From IMG/VR virus record IMGVR_UViG_3300044712_000564, positions 1 through 28,424 of that record: DNA of 28,424 nt, one strand, 5' to 3'. The notes beneath the pieces are model-generated. The model was not told the origin of the DNA, did not search any database, and saw only the letters and a list, made by a program, of their open reading frames with translations. The DNA comes from a virus. Positions within the stretch are counted from its first letter, which is position 1. Every line of letters begins with the position of its first letter. Position numbers and translations under genes: made by a program. Shown piece after piece: positions 850-27,787 of the stretch.

Positions 850-1073
850 GGCTGCACCCGATTGACTGCCCGGTGGAGGCTGGCCGCCACCACGTCCGGG
901 TTGCCAGCGGCGACGGCTCCGGTCAACAAATACCACATTACCATATCCCACCTACACCCGGGCGTGGACAGTTCGACCCCATCGAGTCGATCGTATTCGA
1001 GCGCAATCTGGACCAGCGCCCGATAGATGTGCTCCGGGACTACTACGGTTCTGGCGAGGCGCTCCGGCTTCAT
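846..1073 (-). CDS. Small protein of unknown function (75 aa)
   Basis: The ATG at 1073 overlaps the stop of the ribbon-helix-helix gene (ATGA), and the stop overlaps the GTG of the next gene (GTGA), so the three are translationally coupled. The N-terminus begins MKPERLARTVVVPEHIYRALVQIALEYDR in three short stretches: a basic start, a beta-like VVV stretch and a helix. The C-terminal half holds a WDMVMWYLLTG helix. The layout (short strand then helix, beside a ribbon-helix-helix gene) might suggest another small DNA-binding or partner protein, but no family is recognised. Confidence 0.6.
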   Translation of the reverse strand: MKPERLARTVVVPEHIYRALVQIALEYDRLDGVELSTPGCRWDMVMWYLLTGAVAAGNPDVVAASLHRAVNRVQP

Positions 1074-1225
1074 CGGCCCACCGCGCTATCCAAGATCCCC
1101 GCGATCTCTTCCGCGATGGTTAGCCCGTCCTGGGCAGCTCGGATCTTCAGTGCCTTGTGCAGCTCGGCATTGATGACGGTTGACACCTTGACGTGAGACT
1201 TCACTTTTTTGGGCTTTGCGGGCAT
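1070..1225 (-). CDS. Ribbon-helix-helix DNA-binding protein (51 aa)
   Basis: Start ATG at 1225 follows an AAGGAGG ribosome binding site with 7-nt spacing; the stop overlaps the next ATG. The protein has a Lys-rich N-terminus (residues 3-9), a strand VKVSTVINAELH, a helix HKALKIRAAQDG, then a turn and second helix LTIAEEIAGILDSAV. This strand-helix-helix pattern with a short basic arm is that of the Arc/MetJ/CopG family, which bind operator DNA as dimers through the strand. As first gene of its operon, next to an AT-rich gap with an inverted repeat, autorepression is likely. Seen: length, fold pattern and site. Inferred: regulation. Confidence 0.75.
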   Translation of the reverse strand: MPAKPKKVKSHVKVSTVINAELHKALKIRAAQDGLTIAEEIAGILDSAVGR

Positions 1226-1248
1226 TGAGTTGTCCTCCTTGTCCGTCC

Positions 1249-1277
1249 TTTGTAGCCTCTCCCGCTGGCAGTTGCAA
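1249..1277 (-). promoter_or_regulatory. Sigma70-like promoter of the leftward operon
   Basis: Minus-strand -35 TTGCAA (1272-1277) and -10 TACAAA (1249-1254) are 17 bp apart. The transcript would start near 1242 and give a short leader containing the AAGGAGG of the ribbon-helix-helix gene. The match is moderate (4 of 6 in each box). Confidence 0.45.
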
Positions 1278-1307
1278 GTAAAAAACGCATTTCGCGCAAA
1301 ATAATCT

Positions 1308-1339
1308 ATACGCGCAAGTGCTTGAATGATCGCGCGTAT
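1308..1339. promoter_or_regulatory. 8-bp inverted repeat, candidate operator in the divergent gap
   Basis: ATACGCGC (1308-1315) and GCGCGTAT (1332-1339) are perfect inverted arms separated by 16 nt, within an unusually AT-rich gap. A further CGCGCAA lies at 1293-1299, repeated directly at 1311-1317. The position between divergent promoters and beside a ribbon-helix-helix gene fits an operator; binding is inferred. Confidence 0.4.
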
Positions 1340-1384
1340 CCTGGACTATGACTAGGGCGATTGCGAATATTTCTTTTTTTCCTC

Positions 1385-1413
1385 TTGACGTGTGACGCGG
1401 GTTGTGGCATAAG
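1385..1413 (+). promoter_or_regulatory. Sigma70-like promoter of the small-gene operon
   Basis: -35 TTGACG (1385-1390) and -10-like CATAAG (1408-1413) are 17 bp apart, just upstream of the first plus-strand gene. Transcription would begin near 1420, leaving a leader of about 30 nt with a GAGGAG ribosome binding site. Confidence 0.5.
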
Positions 1414-1449
1414 TTAGTCATACAGCGGGCGACCGCGAGGAGACAGACC

Positions 1450-1623
1450 ATGAACAACACGAAGCGCACCACCGACCAGATGACTTTCGGCTCTCACCGC
1501 GCGGCGGTTGATTGGGCTGCTGCCAAGACGGCCGCCGGTTGGCGTACCTGCATCTACCAGATTACCCTCCCTGGGTTGTTCGGTATACAGGCATGGAAAG
1601 TGATGGCAGTCATCGCCCACTAG
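1450..1623 (+). CDS. Small protein of unknown function (57 aa), first gene of rightward operon
   Basis: The ATG at 1450 follows GAGGAG with about 8-nt spacing, so it is preferred over the longer in-frame start at 1402, which lies in the promoter. The protein has a polar N-terminus, a helix around SHRAAVDWAAAKTAAGW and a hydrophobic C-terminal half (IYQITLPGLFGI then WKVMAVIAH). No family is recognised. Its TAG stop (1621-1623) lies inside stem II of the hammerhead ribozyme that follows, so ribosomes ending here would cover part of the ribozyme. Confidence 0.65.
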   Translation: MNNTKRTTDQMTFGSHRAAVDWAAAKTAAGWRTCIYQITLPGLFGIQAWKVMAVIAH

Positions 1624-1681
1624 GCGAAAACGGGGCTTCGGCCCCGTCCACCGGGCGCCACCCGGTGCTGATGAGCCAGGC
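1618..1681 (+). ncRNA. Type II hammerhead ribozyme, copy 1
   Basis: All core elements of a hammerhead open at stem II are present in order. Stem II 5' strand GGC is at 1623-1625, G-A-A at 1626-1628 with one extra A, and A1630 pairs with U1647. Stem III is CGGGGC (1631-1636) closed by a UUCG tetraloop and GCCCCG (1641-1646). The cleavage triplet GUC is at 1646-1648. Stem I is CACCGGG (1649-1655), loop CGCCA, CCCGGTG (1661-1667). The core CTGATGA (1668-1674) is followed by the stem II 3' strand GCC (1675-1677). Beyond an A-A mismatch, stem II continues with U1621-G1679 and C1620-G1680. Predicted cut: after C1648. The extra A beside stem III is the only departure from the consensus and could slow cleavage. 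Confidence 0.85.
1638..1681 (+). repeat. 44-nt perfect direct repeat, copy 1
   Basis: Identical to 2454-2497. It covers the 3' side of stem III, the cleavage site, stem I, the CTGATGA core and the stem II 3' strand of the hammerhead. The 5' strands of stem II and III, which overlap the upstream ORF, differ between copies. Recombination between the copies would delete three ORFs. Confidence 0.9.
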
Positions 1682-1700
1682 TACCAGAGGAGAAAAGACC

Positions 1701-1931
1701 ATGAAGACCACGAATCAGGCCACCGAGAGCAAGTTCGACGCCACTATCGAGTACGTGCGTCATGGGCTCGCCATACTGACCCTGACCGACTCCCGCGGCG
1801 AGTGGAGCGGCAGCGGCCGCGTGGAGCGAGGCGACAAGGCCTCTCTCTATGAGCTGGGCTATACCCTGGCGTGCCTCTCCGCTCAGTCCAAGGGCGGCCG
1901 GGTCGAGACCTACCGGTGGATCGATGCGTGA
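1701..1931 (+). CDS. Small protein of unknown function (76 aa)
   Basis: The ATG at 1701 follows AGAGGAGA with about 8-nt spacing. It lies 52 nt downstream of the predicted ribozyme cut, so after cleavage its mRNA would begin with the stem I hairpin. The protein has a polar start, a strand-rich middle (ATIEYVRHGLAILTLTDSRGEW, GSGRVERGDKA) and a helix YELGYTLACLSAQSK near the end. This looks like a small alpha/beta fold, but no family is recognised. The stop overlaps the next ORF by 8 nt, suggesting coupled translation. Confidence 0.65.
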   Translation: MKTTNQATESKFDATIEYVRHGLAILTLTDSRGEWSGSGRVERGDKASLYELGYTLACLSAQSKGGRVETYRWIDA

Positions 1932-2151
1932 CCAGTGCGGGGCCAGGCTCGTGCTGGTCCTGGCCCGGAGGCCTGGCAACGCCCTCAACGTGGAGATCGG
2001 CCAGCCGATTGACCGGTGTCTCAACAAGCGGCCGGCGAACTGGCCCTCGTCAATGACCGGGATCCGGTGGCTGGCGAGCGGTGGTGACCGGCTGATTTTC
2101 GGGTATTGCTGCGAGCCGTGCCCGCTACGTGATGAGGTGGATCGTGAATGA
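1924..2151 (+). CDS. Small Cys-containing protein of unknown function (75 aa)
   Basis: The likely start is the ATG at 1924, overlapping the end of the previous gene; the ribosome binding site is weak, so it may depend on coupled translation. Two Cys clusters are seen: Cys5 in DQCGAR near the start and a CCEPC motif near the end, with an extra Cys between. These could form a small zinc site, which is inference only. No family is recognised. Its stop overlaps the start region of the next gene. Confidence 0.5.
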   Translation: MRDQCGARLVLVLARRPGNALNVEIGQPIDRCLNKRPANWPSSMTGIRWLASGGDRLIFGYCCEPCPLRDEVDRE

Positions 2152-2449
2152 ATACAGGAACTCGGCAGGGGACATCGTGAGTCTGATTCGGCTTTGCCGC
2201 GAGGAGCCGGAGTGGGCGGCGAACGTGATCACCACCTTGAAGGCCAGGCTGACGCTTGAAATCACCGGCCGTGCCTGTCCGATTATGGTGCTCCCGCGCG
2301 GGCCTCTCGCCGTGACTGATTGCCTACAGGTGGCGGCCGTCCGGAAGCTGGTAGAGGCGGCAGACGAGTCCTACATAGCAGACCGCGGACTGGGTAAGCT
2401 GAAAGATGCCCTGGCTCCGTTTCTCGCGGCGATACACCAGGCGAAATGA
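2144..2449 (+). CDS. Small helical protein of unknown function (101 aa)
   Basis: I choose the GTG at 2144, preceded closely by GAGGTGG, but the in-frame ATG at 2132 or GTG at 2129 cannot be excluded. The sequence appears mostly helical: a segment around IVSLIRLCREEPEWAANVITTLKARL, then a Pro/Gly-rich turn, then two more helices (CLQVAAVRKLVEAADES and LGKLKDALAPFLAAIHQAK). No family is recognised. Its last sense codons and TGA stop (2447-2449) are part of the second hammerhead: Ala-Lys-stop reads through the G-A-A-A core and into stem III. Confidence 0.55.
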   Translation: MNEYRNSAGDIVSLIRLCREEPEWAANVITTLKARLTLEITGRACPIMVLPRGPLAVTDCLQVAAVRKLVEAADESYIADRGLGKLKDALAPFLAAIHQAK

Positions 2450-2497
2450 GGCCTCGGCCCCGTCCACCGGGCGCCACCCGGTGCTGATGAGCCAGGC
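2436..2497 (+). ncRNA. Type II hammerhead ribozyme, copy 2
   Basis: Stem II 5' strand CC-A-GGC (2437-2442) pairs with GCC-A-GG (2491-2496) around an A-A mismatch. The core G-A-A is at 2443-2445 and A2446 pairs with U2463. Stem III then has U-G, G-C, an A-C mismatch and GGC (2450-2452) with GCC (2457-2459, offset by one) closed by a CUCG loop. GUC is at 2462-2464. Stem I is CACCGGG (2465-2471), loop CGCCA, CCCGGTG (2477-2483), followed by CTGATGA (2484-2490). The GAAA core matches the consensus exactly, unlike copy 1, but stem III is weaker. Predicted cut: after C2464. In stem II a C-G pair here replaces the U-G pair of copy 1, so pairing is kept. Confidence 0.87.
2454..2497 (+). repeat. 44-nt perfect direct repeat, copy 2
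   Basis: Identical to 1638-1681; the start-to-start distance is 816 nt. See the ribozyme entries for what the repeat encodes. Confidence 0.9.
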
Positions 2498-2517
2498 AGC
2501 AGAAGGAGAGACAAACC

Positions 2518-2799
2518 ATGAAGATCACCATGTCCAACAACTTTCACAATACCTCGATCACCCTGTCCATCCCCGAGGGCGGATGCATCCTTTCCGAGTC
2601 CCAGATGAGGAAGGTAGACCGGCTCTGCGGGTCGCGCGAGTGTACCTGCGGCGGCATCCGAGGCCCGCAGCCGGGCATCCCGGGTGACTACTCGATCGTG
2701 CCGGTGCAGGAGGAGGTCAGCCGGATGCGCTCTGACGGATCCCGCAGGCTCATCAGCACCCTGGATATCAGCGTGTACCCGGACGGCGTGTACCGTTGA
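2518..2799 (+). CDS. Small Cys-rich protein of unknown function (93 aa)
   Basis: The ATG at 2518 follows AAGGAGAG and lies 53 nt after the predicted cut of the second ribozyme. This is nearly the same leader geometry as the gene after the first ribozyme, with a shared ACC-ATG-AAG start context. The protein has a strand-rich N-terminus (NTSITLSIPEGG), a central Cys cluster (LCGSRECTCGG, around residues 37-47) and a strand-rich end (RRLISTLDISVYPDGVY). A metal site is possible but unproven. No family is recognised. Confidence 0.65.
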   Translation: MKITMSNNFHNTSITLSIPEGGCILSESQMRKVDRLCGSRECTCGGIRGPQPGIPGDYSIVPVQEEVSRMRSDGSRRLISTLDISVYPDGVYR

Positions 2800-2972
2800 C
2801 CCGCGTCTGCGCCTGGTGTGACAAGCCCCTGCCCCCGCAGCCCGGGGACGAGGACGAGCCGGACCGGACCTCTCATGGGATCTGCGCGGAGTGTCTGGTG
2901 ACGTTCGACGTGCCGGAGCCTACCCCAGCCACCGATACCAGCACGGGGTCTGCCCCTTCCCATCGACCGTGA
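2796..2972 (+). CDS. Short C4 zinc-finger-like protein (58 aa)
   Basis: A TTG at 2796 overlaps the previous stop (TTGA) and opens a 58-codon frame. It encodes CAWC near the N-terminus and SHGICAEC about 25 residues later. A paired CxxC arrangement with SHGIC is common in short bacterial and phage zinc-ribbon proteins, and this supports the frame being real despite the rare start. The C-terminal 20 residues are Thr/Pro/Ser-rich. The last 53 nt overlap, on the opposite strand, the 3' end of the lysin gene. It is the last gene of the rightward operon. Confidence 0.55.
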   Translation: MTRVCAWCDKPLPPQPGDEDEPDRTSHGICAECLVTFDVPEPTPATDTSTGSAPSHRP

Positions 2973-3633
2973 TCTCGTCCCAGTCGACCTGCAGCCCAGC
3001 CACGGCCGTGGGCAACCCCTGCCGGATGCTCCACCCGCGCGGCAGCGGCTCCATGTATGGCGCCCGCTTCGCCGGGTAGCTGCCCCAGTAGCTCGTGACG
3101 TGCGGTAGGCGGTAGAGTCCCGGCCCGGTCGGCCGGACTGCGTCGTCGCCGACGTACAACCCCGCCTGGTAGCCGGCCTGAACCACGACCGACGACCAGG
3201 TGTCTATGTACGCCCTGGTAGCGGCCTCGCCCGCGGCGTGCGCGCGTGCGCCCTCGACGTCACACCAGAGATGACCCCCTGGAAGCAGGCCCAGGAGTCG
3301 GGCTGACTGCACCGCGGCCTCGCCCCGCTTGCGCCCGAGGTCCGTCCCGAGCATGTCCCCGCGGGCGGGCCCGAACTGCACCGGGATGAGAGCCTTGCCG
3401 GCCGCGCCGATCCACTCGGCCTCCTGCAGGGATAACGACCAGACGCCGGCCCAATCGCCACCTGGCACCACGTGGCCGCGCACCTCACCGTCGAGGCGCA
3501 GGTAGCGGGCGCAGAACACCACCTCCGGGACGGCTGCCAGCCATTCGGGGGTGCAGACGTTGCCGGGGGAGCTGTCGCACCCCGCGGAGTCGATGCCCTT
3601 GCACGGCCACGCTGGCTCGGGGTACCAGGTCAT
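2920..3633 (-). CDS. DUF1906-like glycoside-hydrolase-type lysin
   Basis: 237 aa from the ATG at 3633, which overlaps the stop of the upstream gene. The sequence fits the Rv2525c/DUF1906 TIM-barrel pattern. It opens with KGIDSAGC (Asp15), followed by VFCARYL, then a helix LSLQEAEWIGAAGKALIPVQFG. Next come a G-x3-A-rich helix and LWCDVEGA (Asp125, Glu127 at the barrel mouth), then AGYQAGLYVG, a SYWGSYPAK segment, and AGLQVDWDEI near the end. These features match phage endolysins or tail lysins that act on cell-wall glycans. No signal peptide is seen, so release through a holin is expected. It is the last gene of the late operon and sits with several small membrane proteins. Catalysis is inferred from the acidic residues. 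Confidence 0.7.
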   Translation of the reverse strand: MTWYPEPAWPCKGIDSAGCDSSPGNVCTPEWLAAVPEVVFCARYLRLDGEVRGHVVPGGDWAGVWSLSLQEAEWIGAAGKALIPVQFGPARGDMLGTDLGRKRGEAAVQSARLLGLLPGGHLWCDVEGARAHAAGEAATRAYIDTWSSVVVQAGYQAGLYVGDDAVRPTGPGLYRLPHVTSYWGSYPAKRAPYMEPLPRGWSIRQGLPTAVAGLQVDWDEITVDGKGQTPCWYRWLG

Positions 3634-3956
3634 GCGCCACCCTGTCCGCGGCGGGGCAGCTGCGGATCGTGGACTCCGGAAACGTCCTCCTCCCACGAGC
3701 GGGCCCGGCACCCCTTGACGTGCTCGTCGATCGCTTCCTTGACGTGCGCGACGGTCCACCCCTTCGAGGACTGGTGTTTCGATCGCTCCTCCTCGCGGGC
3801 GTCCCGGGCCACGGCCGCGAGCTGCATCTTGCGGAGCTGCTTGCCGAGGTTCTTCACGTCGGCCCGGAAGCCCCGGAAGCCAGCGGCAGCGGCCAGGAGG
3901 GCGGCGATCAGGGTGGCACCGATACCGGCGAGGGCCGAGGCCCATGAGGCGGTCAT
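3630..3956 (-). CDS. Small membrane protein with coiled-coil tail, lysis region
   Basis: 108 aa. The ATG at 3956 follows AAGGAG and overlaps the previous stop. One membrane helix at residues 7-27 (Ala/Leu/Ile-rich, ending in GFRGF) is followed by a charged helical stretch (about 31-62: Lys, Arg, Glu every few residues). A soluble C-terminus ends in basic residues. The single N-terminal anchor plus charged helix resembles inner-membrane spanins or single-helix holins. Position between holin-like genes and the lysin supports a lysis role; the exact class is not decided by the sequence. Confidence 0.6.
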   Translation of the reverse strand: MTASWASALAGIGATLIAALLAAAAGFRGFRADVKNLGKQLRKMQLAAVARDAREEERSKHQSSKGWTVAHVKEAIDEHVKGCRARSWEEDVSGVHDPQLPRRGQGGA

Positions 3957-4078
3957 CGTTTCCGCTCCTTCTTCTTCGTCGGGTCGTTGACGATGGCGTC
4001 GACGGCCACGGCCACCAGGATCGCGGCCCCGAGGACGGTATCCAGGAGTCGGCGCATCCGGCGGCGGAAGTGGGTCAC
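3953..4078 (-). CDS. Tiny single-helix membrane protein (41 aa)
   Basis: The GTG at 4078 overlaps the stop of the upstream gene (GTGA) and its own stop overlaps the next ATG (ATGA). The basic N-terminus (THFRRRMRR) leads to one membrane helix (residues 11-30, LLDTVLGAAILVAVAVDAIV), then a Lys/Arg-rich tail ending KKKERKR. An internal ATG (residue 8) is an alternative start. A small holin or anti-holin-like role in the lysis region is plausible. Confidence 0.55.
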   Translation of the reverse strand: MTHFRRRMRRLLDTVLGAAILVAVAVDAIVNDPTKKKERKR

Positions 4079-4869
4079 GCCAGCACCTCGAGGAGCCCGC
4101 GCGCCTCGACCGCGGCACCACCGGGATGCGCGACCACTAGCTCCACATCCCATAGACCCGCGGGCGGGGGCTGGTCATCGGCCGCAGCCCACCGCAGGAC
4201 GAGTCGCCCGGCGTTGCCAGCGCCCACCGTGGCGAGCCTGGACCGCTGATCCGGGTCGGCTGTGATCTGGTAGACCCCGCTCGACCCCACGCACTCCACG
4301 AGGCTCGACCGCGTCTGGACGAGGGTCCGGGTGCGCCTGTCGAGAATCCGCATGGTGATCGTCGCCAGGCTGCCCGGGGTCGCCGCGAGGACGTTGTCCA
4401 CTGCGGAGAGTCCGGATACCCCCGGGGAGATCGTGTCCAGCGCGTGCGCCAGCGCAGCCACCGGGCCCGCGATCTGCCGGGTGACCACGAGGTCACGGGT
4501 GAGCCCGGCCGGGATGCTCGACGCGGCGCCGGTCTCCCACAGGCCGTCCACGTCCGCGTGCTTGACCGTGGTCTGTGCCGGGATCACCGTGGCGAGCGTA
4601 CCTGTGAAGGTCGCCGTGGCCGTGCTGTGTGCCCCGAGCGGGATGCCATCCGTGGTGCCCGTGTCCGTGAGGTAGAGCAGGTCGAGCTGGCAGGCCCACG
4701 CGCGGCCCAGGTAGAGCGCCTGACCGCCGGCGGCCTCGAGCAATTCCCGGGTGAGCCGGAGCATCGTCGGGCTCTCGGCGTAGCCGTAGGGCGCGGCGAG
4801 GTCCGTTACCGGGCCTTCCTCGAGGTGGGTCACCAGGATGGACCGCTCCGCGATCGTCTGCGTCGTCAT
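4075..4869 (-). CDS. Virion protein carrying a baseplate-J-type domain
   Basis: 264 aa; the ATG at 4869 follows AAGGAG. The N-terminal part (residues 25-75) looks like the approach to a gpJ domain: helix MLRLTRELLEAAGG, then LGRAWACQLDLLYLTDTGTTDGIPLG. Residues 80-168 align by eye to the central beta module of the window's own gpJ and of the 722-aa protein. Shared landmarks are STATATFTG-TLATVIPAQTTVKHAD, then VAALAHALDTISPGVSGLSAVDNVLAATPG. The C-terminal 90 residues are strand-rich (LVLRWAAAD, DVELVVAHPGG) and may be another beta domain. It is probably a structural or accessory tail protein placed among lysis genes; its place in the particle is unknown. Confidence 0.6.
   Translation of the reverse strand: MTTQTIAERSILVTHLEEGPVTDLAAPYGYAESPTMLRLTRELLEAAGGQALYLGRAWACQLDLLYLTDTGTTDGIPLGAHSTATATFTGTLATVIPAQTTVKHADVDGLWETGAASSIPAGLTRDLVVTRQIAGPVAALAHALDTISPGVSGLSAVDNVLAATPGSLATITMRILDRRTRTLVQTRSSLVECVGSSGVYQITADPDQRSRLATVGAGNAGRLVLRWAAADDQPPPAGLWDVELVVAHPGGAAVEARGLLEVLA
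4366..4632 (-). repeat. gpJ-type beta module within the 264-aa protein
   Basis: Residues 80-168. This is one of three places in the window with the same module; the others are 12851-13126 (gpJ) and the repeat block 8574-9989 (722-aa protein). Similarity is at protein level only. Confidence 0.6.
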
Positions 4870-26188: not shown

Positions 26189-27787
26189 TTATCTCCGCAG
26201 CGGCACCACGTTGTCACGATCTTCTGCTCCGAGCGACCGCGGGACGCAGACCCCGAGGTCAAACCGCTTGGAGAAAAGAAGGGCTTGACTTGTGGCGTCG
26301 ACCTGATCGTCATGCGTGCCGTTGGGAAAGGCGAACAGCTCGGCCAGGTAGGCTGCGCTCCACGTCCACGCCCCGCCCGCTGGGGTGGGCACCATGACCA
26401 GCCCGTCCTCGAACTCGCCCGCCACGGCCGCCAGTCGTTCGCCCTTCTGCGTGCCCTGCACCTCGAAATCAGCCACATTCGGGAGTGTCTGCCGCAGGTA
26501 CTCCGCGACGTTCGGCCCACTCGCTTTGGCTTCGATCACGGTCTGCGTGTGATGGTAGCCCGCGCATCCGCCCCACTCGGCCTCGAGGCGAAGCACGGCC
26601 TGGGCCATGCGTTGCGGCAGGCACCGCTCGCGGAACTGCGCCAGGAGCACACGGAGGCAGCGGGCCCCCGGGCGGTCGAGGATCCCCCAGACCTGCACCA
26701 CTGCATAGTCAGAGTCGGTGGTGCGCTTCCAGGTGCCGTCCACGCTGATGACGATGCACTCCCAGGGCTTAGCCCCGGGCTCCTCGAAGCGGGCGAGCTC
26801 GGGGATCAACTTGCCGGGGCAGAGCGCGGAGTGTTCCCCGTCGCCCCAGTACCGGAGCCAGTGGCGCTGGATCATCGCGCCTCCAGCGGGAGCAGGCACT
26901 TGGTTATACTGTGTCTGATACCCGATCTCTGAGAGGTTCAAGCGGGCCGACTCAAGGACCTTCGGCGTCAACAGCCGGTCGTCAAGTAATTCGCCCTTCT
27001 CCTTCCGCCAATCGACCCACCCTAGCGATGTAGGGGCGTGGCCCTCTCCGTCGTACTCGGCCGGAAGACACAGGTGATCCCACCCGCCCTGAACGAGCGC
27101 CATGCCCGGTGGGTCGCCCTCGGCTAGGCGCTGTGCAATGATGCACTCGGCCGTTGGGACGCCGAGGGTCAAGCGCGTGGTGGCAACAGTGGAGTACCAG
27201 TCCCAGGCGCGGGCGACGGTGTCCAGGTTGCGGCCGGCAAGGATTTCCTTGGCGTCCACGAGGTCATCCGCGAGGATGCGCGGGGCACGCATGCCGATTA
27301 GGTTCGAGCCCGTGGACTGCGACCAGCGCGCGCCGCCGGCTGTGTTTTCGAAGTAGCTCTTCGTGTCCTGGCTGCGGCTGAACTGCCACGAGGGGCGGAA
27401 GGTCCGTTGGTACCACTCCGAGGCGATCAGCTCGTGCATCCGGTTCGCGCCGATGAGCGCAACCCGTGGGTTGGCCGAGAGACAAATCGCCCGCATGGTG
27501 GGGTCCCAGGTCCACGCCCATGCCATCCCATAGATCGATGCGAACATGGACTTCGCGGTGCCGGGGGGCTGGCAGATGAGCAGCCTGGGGATCTGTCCGC
27601 GCCACCACGCTTCGACGTGGGTTGCTACCGCGTCCTGCATGGGGCCCCAGTGCAGCACCTGGCCCGGGTGTAGCGACGCCCAGCCGCGCCGAATGAAGTC
27701 GGATAGGGACTCACGGCACAGCCGCGCCTCGGCCGCGCGCCGCACCTCGGAGGCGGGTAGACCGGCCACTGTCTCGAGTGCGATCAT
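26189..27787 (-). CDS. Terminase large subunit
   Basis: 532 aa, ATG at 27787 overlapping the small terminase stop. The ATPase has a Walker A-like LLICQPPGTAKSM (residues 69-81) and a Walker B ILADDLVD (171-178). YQTQYNQVPAPAGGAMI (290-306) leads into the nuclease. The RNase-H-like nuclease has Asp350 in ISVDGTWKRT, Glu419 in VIEAKASG, and Asp493/Asp494/Asp497 in THDDQVDATSQAL. These are the catalytic carboxylates of headful or cos-cutting terminases. The enzyme cuts and packages DNA through the portal, which is the next gene. Complete and intact. Confidence 0.92.
   Translation of the reverse strand: MIALETVAGLPASEVRRAAEARLCRESLSDFIRRGWASLHPGQVLHWGPMQDAVATHVEAWWRGQIPRLLICQPPGTAKSMFASIYGMAWAWTWDPTMRAICLSANPRVALIGANRMHELIASEWYQRTFRPSWQFSRSQDTKSYFENTAGGARWSQSTGSNLIGMRAPRILADDLVDAKEILAGRNLDTVARAWDWYSTVATTRLTLGVPTAECIIAQRLAEGDPPGMALVQGGWDHLCLPAEYDGEGHAPTSLGWVDWRKEKGELLDDRLLTPKVLESARLNLSEIGYQTQYNQVPAPAGGAMIQRHWLRYWGDGEHSALCPGKLIPELARFEEPGAKPWECIVISVDGTWKRTTDSDYAVVQVWGILDRPGARCLRVLLAQFRERCLPQRMAQAVLRLEAEWGGCAGYHHTQTVIEAKASGPNVAEYLRQTLPNVADFEVQGTQKGERLAAVAGEFEDGLVMVPTPAGGAWTWSAAYLAELFAFPNGTHDDQVDATSQALLFSKRFDLGVCVPRSLGAEDRDNVVPLRR

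Follow-up and report, generated by a model that had tools for sequence, protein, structure and literature searches.

The window analysed here, 28,424 bases long, is the entire IMG/VR record IMGVR_UViG_3300044712_000564 and belongs to an uncharacterised myovirus. Its reverse strand encodes the myovirus structural genes (terminase, portal, head, sheath, tape measure, and baseplate); the tail sheath matches distant phages only, at 26-36% identity. At the left end, on the plus strand, the list of open reading frames (ORFs) and the sequence delineate a short operon of small ORFs, A to E and probably F:

1450-1623, plus strand: gene A, a 57-aa ORF, whose stop codon TAG (1621-1623) reaches one base into stem II of the ribozyme described below (ORF list, sequence)
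1701-1931, plus strand: gene B, a 76-aa ORF starting with the ATG at 1701 and overlapping gene C (ORF list)
1924-2151, plus strand: gene C, overlapping genes B and D at junctions without a ribozyme (ORF list)
2129-2449, plus strand: gene D, an ORF of about 100 aa, whose stop codon TGA (2447-2449) lies within stem III of the second ribozyme (ORF list, sequence)
2518-2799, plus strand: gene E, a 93-aa ORF beginning 20 nt past the tail of the second ribozyme (ORF list, sequence)
2796-2972, plus strand: inferred gene F, a Cys-rich 58-aa ORF starting from a TTG and overlapping the stop codon of gene E (read by eye)

The junctions B/C, C/D, and E/F are overlaps; A/B and D/E are gaps of 77 and 68 nt, respectively, and each is filled by a ribozyme on the plus strand. 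No convincing match in Pfam or PHROG was obtained for genes A to E, nor a tblastn relative of gene B among named phages, and a search of IMG/VR for relatives of gene B, the tail sheath, and the lysin-like protein mentioned below confirmed none. No promoter passed a consensus scan upstream of the operon, and the promoter/terminator scan of the plus strand gave nothing useful.

Genes A, B, and E have in common a 31-nt stretch around ACCATGAA at their starts (1445-1475, 1696-1726, and 2513-2543), the B and E copies being 81% and 65% identical to the gene A copy; of these three genes, only B and E come after a hammerhead. The operon is convergent with a reverse-strand gene (2920-3945), the end of which overlaps the inferred gene F and which encodes a lysin-like protein with an Rv2525c-like glycoside hydrolase domain (PF08924, E 3e-11). 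Also on the reverse strand, positions 313-951 harbor a 212-aa ORF with many Ala-Trp repeats (AAWDAAWAAAWAAAW...) that matches PHROG 18326 (E 8e-8).

Structure and classification of the two ribozymes

The elements of copy 1, at the A/B junction, and the location of copy 2, at the D/E junction, are as follows:

1622-1685, plus strand: type II hammerhead, copy 1 (RF02276, 39.0 bits, E 9.2e-5, above the gathering score)
1623-1625, plus strand: 5' strand of stem II, GGC, pairing with 1675-1677 (sequence, fold)
1626-1630, plus strand: core GAAAA, one A beyond the consensus GAAA (sequence)
1631-1646, plus strand: stem III hairpin CGGGGC-UUCG-GCCCCG (strands 1631-1636 and 1641-1646, UUCG loop 1637-1640, pair probabilities 0.98), predicted 3' end of the upstream message
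1648-1649, plus strand: predicted cleavage site after C17 of the GUC (U16.1 = 1647, C17 = 1648), by the hammerhead rule applied to the sequence
1649-1667, plus strand: stem I hairpin CACCGGG-CGCCA-CCCGGTG (strands 1649-1655 and 1661-1667, loop CGCCA 1656-1660, pair probabilities 0.94-1.0), predicted 5' end of the downstream message
1668-1677, plus strand: core CUGAUGA (CTGATGA in the DNA, 1668-1674) and 3' strand of stem II, GCC (1675-1677) (sequence, pattern scan)
1679-1681, plus strand: tail GGC, proposed to form a 3-bp pseudoknot with the GCC of loop I (1657-1659), covarying in contig L123 and in other arrays
1686-1692, plus strand: Shine-Dalgarno-like AGAGGAG, preceding the gene B ATG by 8 nt (sequence)
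2439-2505, plus strand: type II hammerhead, copy 2 (RF02276, 41.6 bits, E 1.9e-5; normal GAAA)

The initial annotation had described copy 1 as a type II hammerhead between two phage genes. Direct reading recovers all elements it named (the stems, the core, and the GUC), with a 6-bp stem III carrying a UUCG loop, a 7-bp stem I, CTGATGA, and both halves of stem II, and the ORF list places them between genes A and B. The elements follow in the order GGC-GAAA-stem III-GUC-stem I-CUGAUGA-GCC; in both copies stems I and III are closed and stem II is open, a topology that fits neither type I nor type III. In a cmscan of the window against all of Rfam, the kind of scoring that the annotation had suggested, copy 1 like copy 2 passes the RF02276 gathering score of 37, with per-genome E-values of 2e-8 and 5e-9 for the RF02276 matches. 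RF02276 is the sole family to exceed its cut-off in the window; type I and type III hammerhead families do not appear among the Rfam matches even up to E = 1, and 14 control genomes gave no RF02276 match above the cut-off. A third RF02276 match in the window (27538-27589) scores 15.4 bits, far under the cut-off, and was rejected. The sequence CTGATGAGNC is found three times in the window versus 0.23 expected. Rfam model, core, topology, and covariation with relatives agree on the type II identity, a class that is indeed known from bacteria and phages and was published in 2011 (PMC3088659).

For the 67-nt copy 1 element the hammerhead is the predicted fold, stems I and III being near certain in the ensemble and the nested hammerhead structure lying 1.2 kcal/mol above the minimum. 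Since the folding-energy z-score is unremarkable (-1.28, not distinct from shuffled sequence), folding energy is not used here, and the evidence consists of the core and the covariance-model score. The invariant core is intact in copy 2, and in copy 1 save for one A inserted in the GAAA. This fourth A after the G, to which attention had been drawn at the outset, is real and, within a set of 252 non-redundant type II elements that includes copy 1, peculiar to this copy. Since a natural hammerhead whose GAAA segment likewise contains an insertion (U13a) is reported to be active (Perreault et al., 2011; PMC3088659), copy 1 is expected to have genuine activity, though at a reduced level.

The two copies are 88% identical over 66 nt and have one and the same sequence from the 3' strand of stem III through the tail. 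On the downstream side their likeness continues beyond the Shine-Dalgarno site and covers the initial codons of the following gene; the upstream gene does not share it. At the place of the copy 1 TAG, the ORF upstream of copy 2 reads CAG and stops later, at the TGA within stem III. Both irregular pairs of this stem, one U.G and one A x C, lie inside that TGA, so that the weakness of stem III in copy 2 is due to the stop codon of gene D. The nested fold of copy 2 lies 8.5 kcal/mol above the minimum, i.e. a competing fold is better; the Rfam score is higher for copy 2, but copy 1 folds better. Cutting may be slow in copy 1 (core insertion) or in copy 2 (mismatched stem III, competing fold).

The contact between loop I and the tail, 3 bp GCC:GGC in the window copies, is a pseudoknot already known from earlier work (Perreault et al., 2011). 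The IMG/VR contig L123, the one contig found with the exact stem I sequence of copy 1, preserves the fold with stem II swapped to GCC/GGC, and its loop I and tail read GUC:GAC; a looser form of the stem I sequence gave no match among the genome contigs searched. Across 163 distinct loop/tail pairs, the longest run of pairs averages 3.69 bp versus 2.74 with tails shuffled (500 shuffles, maximum mean 2.93), and across arrays the stems, the pseudoknot, and the core are kept through compensating changes. On another viral contig of 67.6 kb (L134), eight type II pattern matches with stem II GCC/GGC fall within 4 kb (890-4792), and the whole record holds ten RF02276 matches. The window copies resemble the published RF02276 elements (PMC3088659) in the 3-bp open stem II, the closed stems I and III, the CUGAUGA/GAAA core, the GUC cut site, the pseudoknot from loop I to the 3' tail, and the phage intergenic setting. 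They differ in the GAAAA of copy 1, in the mismatched stem III with the upstream TGA of copy 2, and in having a pseudoknot of only 3 bp, where Perreault et al. give at least four potential pairs for the majority of type II hammerheads.

Placement relative to stop codons and gene gaps

The overlap of the upstream stop codon with the ribozyme escaped the initial annotation. Judged by sequence comparison, the stop codon of the upstream gene at the ribozyme is the most regular feature of the type II class in phages. Two pattern scans of IMG/VR, filtered for paired stems, yielded the 252 type II elements with non-redundant upstream sequence mentioned above. A stop codon ending an open frame of at least 40 codons lies at -15 to +10 relative to G12 in 74% of set A (n = 123) and 83% of set B (n = 120), compared with 18% and 17% for randomly chosen positions of these contigs, a control that leaves some effects of shared ancestry. 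The most frequent stop positions are -6 and -5, immediately preceding the stem II strand; the copy 1 stop is at -5 and that of copy 2 at +4, within stem III. A Shine-Dalgarno-like site with a start codon follows at most 40 nt after stem II in about 61% of cases (9% in the control).

A second regularity concerns the gaps between genes. In four annotated phages, VieEnRose, Diane, and Triumph of Streptomyces and CRP-212 of Roseobacter, 25 of the 28 gaps measuring 55-160 nt contain a type II match, as opposed to none of the 50 that measure 30 nt or less. One of the three empty gaps (VieEnRose, L242 7632-7742) contains a hammerhead with a long stem III, read by eye, and two more matches, one in VieEnRose and one in Diane, lie on annotated gene starts or ends, outside gaps. 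The window obeys the same rule, with hammerheads in its 77- and 68-nt gaps and overlaps elsewhere. In twelve array loci, mostly picked by the type II pattern, all 63 matches over the cut-off are of type II.

Two annotation issues emerged alongside. In VieEnRose, the start annotated for gene 72 coincides with a weak type II match (30.2 bits; L242 5616-5684; ON526983), and the start codon of this gene was probably called too early. In Diane (L245 8276-8483) and Triumph (L246 9047-9244), two hammerheads flank about 200 nt devoid of annotated genes, which might contain a small gene overlooked in annotation or be excised as a small RNA.

Hairpins at the cut in three topologies

According to the initial annotation, cleavage would leave both new RNA ends capped by structure. 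This is true of copy 1; the comparison of hammerhead types, however, supports selection for the 3' hairpin of the upstream message only. In types I and II, stem III is the last structure of the upstream product, whereas the type III topology leaves none there. A separate GC-rich hairpin is found directly upstream of type III elements in 69% and 65% of cases (two pattern sets) and in 23/42 (55%) after strict dedupe, versus 12% each in shuffled sequence and at places 13-38 nt after stop codons; in types I and II such a separate hairpin occurs in 6-8%. Taken together, the upstream product ends in a hairpin in 80-83% of type I, 94% of type II, and 59-75% of type III elements (controls 7-16%), and is thus mostly hairpin-ended in all three topologies.

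The loops point the same way: UNCG or GNRA sequences make up about two thirds of the four-base stem III loops (59/84 and 49/77 in two sets), compared with 9% of control hairpins (180/2067). The tetraloops and the hairpin added in type III suggest selection for an upstream message with a 3'-terminal hairpin. Alternatively, the added hairpin could stack on the short stem III of type III elements and help folding. The idea that the downstream product is selected to have a 5' hairpin was discarded, as type I lacks one and adds none (3-10% vs 8-12% in controls). The stem I hairpin at the downstream 5' end follows from the type II topology, and the 5' cap looks, from these sequences, like a by-product.

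Separate hairpins right upstream of type III hammerheads are seen in L334 (reverse strand), L335, L285, L295, L305, L367, and L408. A recurring version is built on GTGTCTTCAAAGACAC; the GGGGCTTCGGCCCC and GGGAGGAGCAATCCTCCC versions are unrelated in sequence. In the open-licence papers searched, no report of this added hairpin or of the stop-codon rule was found, and priority is claimed for neither; a text search of the 2011 description (PMC3088659) for stop codon, ribosome binding, exonuclease, and tetraloop came up empty.

Proposed operon punctuation and alternative readings

Copies 1 and 2 probably cut the myovirus operon into units with hairpin-ended upstream messages. This reading builds on sequence, structure model, position, and comparative regularity, from which we infer transcription, cleavage in this phage, and the effect on stability. 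During transcription of a junction, the stem III and stem I hairpins would form and stem II would then close, whereupon the RNA would cut itself after C1648 (copy 1) or C2464 (copy 2). The upstream message would retain its stop codon and have as its 3' terminus, only slightly further on, the stem III hairpin (UUCG-capped in copy 1), which would slow 3'-to-5' exonucleases; the downstream message would carry a 5'-OH at the stem I hairpin and have its Shine-Dalgarno site free. Through these two cuts the operon would be divided into A, B-C-D, and E-F, with overlapping starts and stops joining the genes inside the units. The element would thereby offer a way to make mRNA 3' ends without a promoter or terminator.

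The regular placement of the stop codon could also mean that the element senses translation instead of merely punctuating the message: a terminating ribosome would cover stem II and delay folding, and cleavage would occur only when the upstream gene is untranslated. In most elements the stop does overlap or abut stem II, copy 1 included (copy 2, at +4, has it further in), and a ribosome footprint would cover the 5' strand. Such a switch is nevertheless unlikely, as tightly packed phage genes would put stops there anyway, the stop of type III elements lies further upstream with the hairpin in between, and the cut falls 25 nt past the stop, so that the upstream gene keeps its stop codon regardless of cleavage. 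It is likewise improbable that hammerhead, leader, and start codon travel as the border of shuffled accessory genes, with self-cleavage secondary or lost. The similarity of the copies, which enters the next gene and spares the upstream one, and the neighbouring genes without recognised families would agree with this, but shuffling alone would not account for the compensating changes that keep stems, pseudoknot, and core across arrays, and the elements within an array are, for the most part, not duplicates of each other (L244).

Irregularities within the window raise the question of whether both copies have lost useful activity and persist as relics. The unique extra A of copy 1, together with the stem III mismatches and the disfavoured fold of copy 2, lends itself to this view; yet the copies do not differ at all from the 3' strand of stem III through the tail, each passes the Rfam cut-off, stem III of copy 1 is very stable, and the U13a insertion is tolerated in an active hammerhead (PMC3088659), which makes decay an improbable account as well. 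Chance resemblance of a GC-rich double hairpin, to which the weak z-score might be taken to point, has a negligible probability: the 28 kb of the window contain two copies that exceed the curated cut-off and the control genomes none, both copies sit correctly between genes, and they have covarying relatives.

Operon cutting by self-cleavage is not a new idea. Type II hammerheads, their clusters around prophage genes, and a proposed role in mRNA processing were published in 2011 (PMC3088659), and the window elements therefore belong to an already known kind; a review of 2017 lists the role of prokaryotic hammerheads as an open question (PMC6155905). In the clusters of Agrobacterium, Azorhizobium, and Clostridium scindens, for which mRNA processing was proposed too, several hammerheads likewise flank single genes or short gene blocks (PMC3088659). 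Those clusters were assayed for cleavage: natural polycistronic RNAs of about 2 kb were cleaved in vitro, and an Agrobacterium array was cleaved when cloned in E. coli (PMC3088659). The window array, in contrast, is short, with two copies that are predicted to cleave.

The arrays of VieEnRose, Diane, and Triumph, which are of type II only, resemble the window in that nearly all gaps of 55-160 nt in one operon are filled and most other genes overlap or abut. They differ in copy number (nine to ten scored copies per phage vs two), and no close kinship was found between these Arquatrovirinae and the window phage. Host RNases, too, process phage mRNA at gene junctions (RNase III in T7, RNase E in T4). 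There, too, a polycistronic message is cut between genes and the new ends are structured, but a host protein does the cutting, whereas the window RNA is predicted to cut itself.

More broadly, it is possible, though put forward tentatively, that phage hammerheads of all three topologies represent one mRNA 3'-end device, a hairpin plus a self-cut near the stop codon, for which types I and II would use stem III and type III would add a separate upstream hairpin, and which would replace terminators and internal promoters. In some phages, nearly every non-overlapping gene junction carries a hammerhead. Taken by itself, the window copy is unremarkable; comparing it with other elements yields measurable rules, i.e. 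a stop codon at stem II, stable stem III tetraloops, and an extra hairpin only in the topology that needs one, and these rules point to 3'-end formation. They are open to testing in isolated, culturable Streptomyces phages, e.g. VieEnRose, Diane, and Triumph. If the proposal is true, these phages punctuate their operons by self-cutting RNA in place of terminators.
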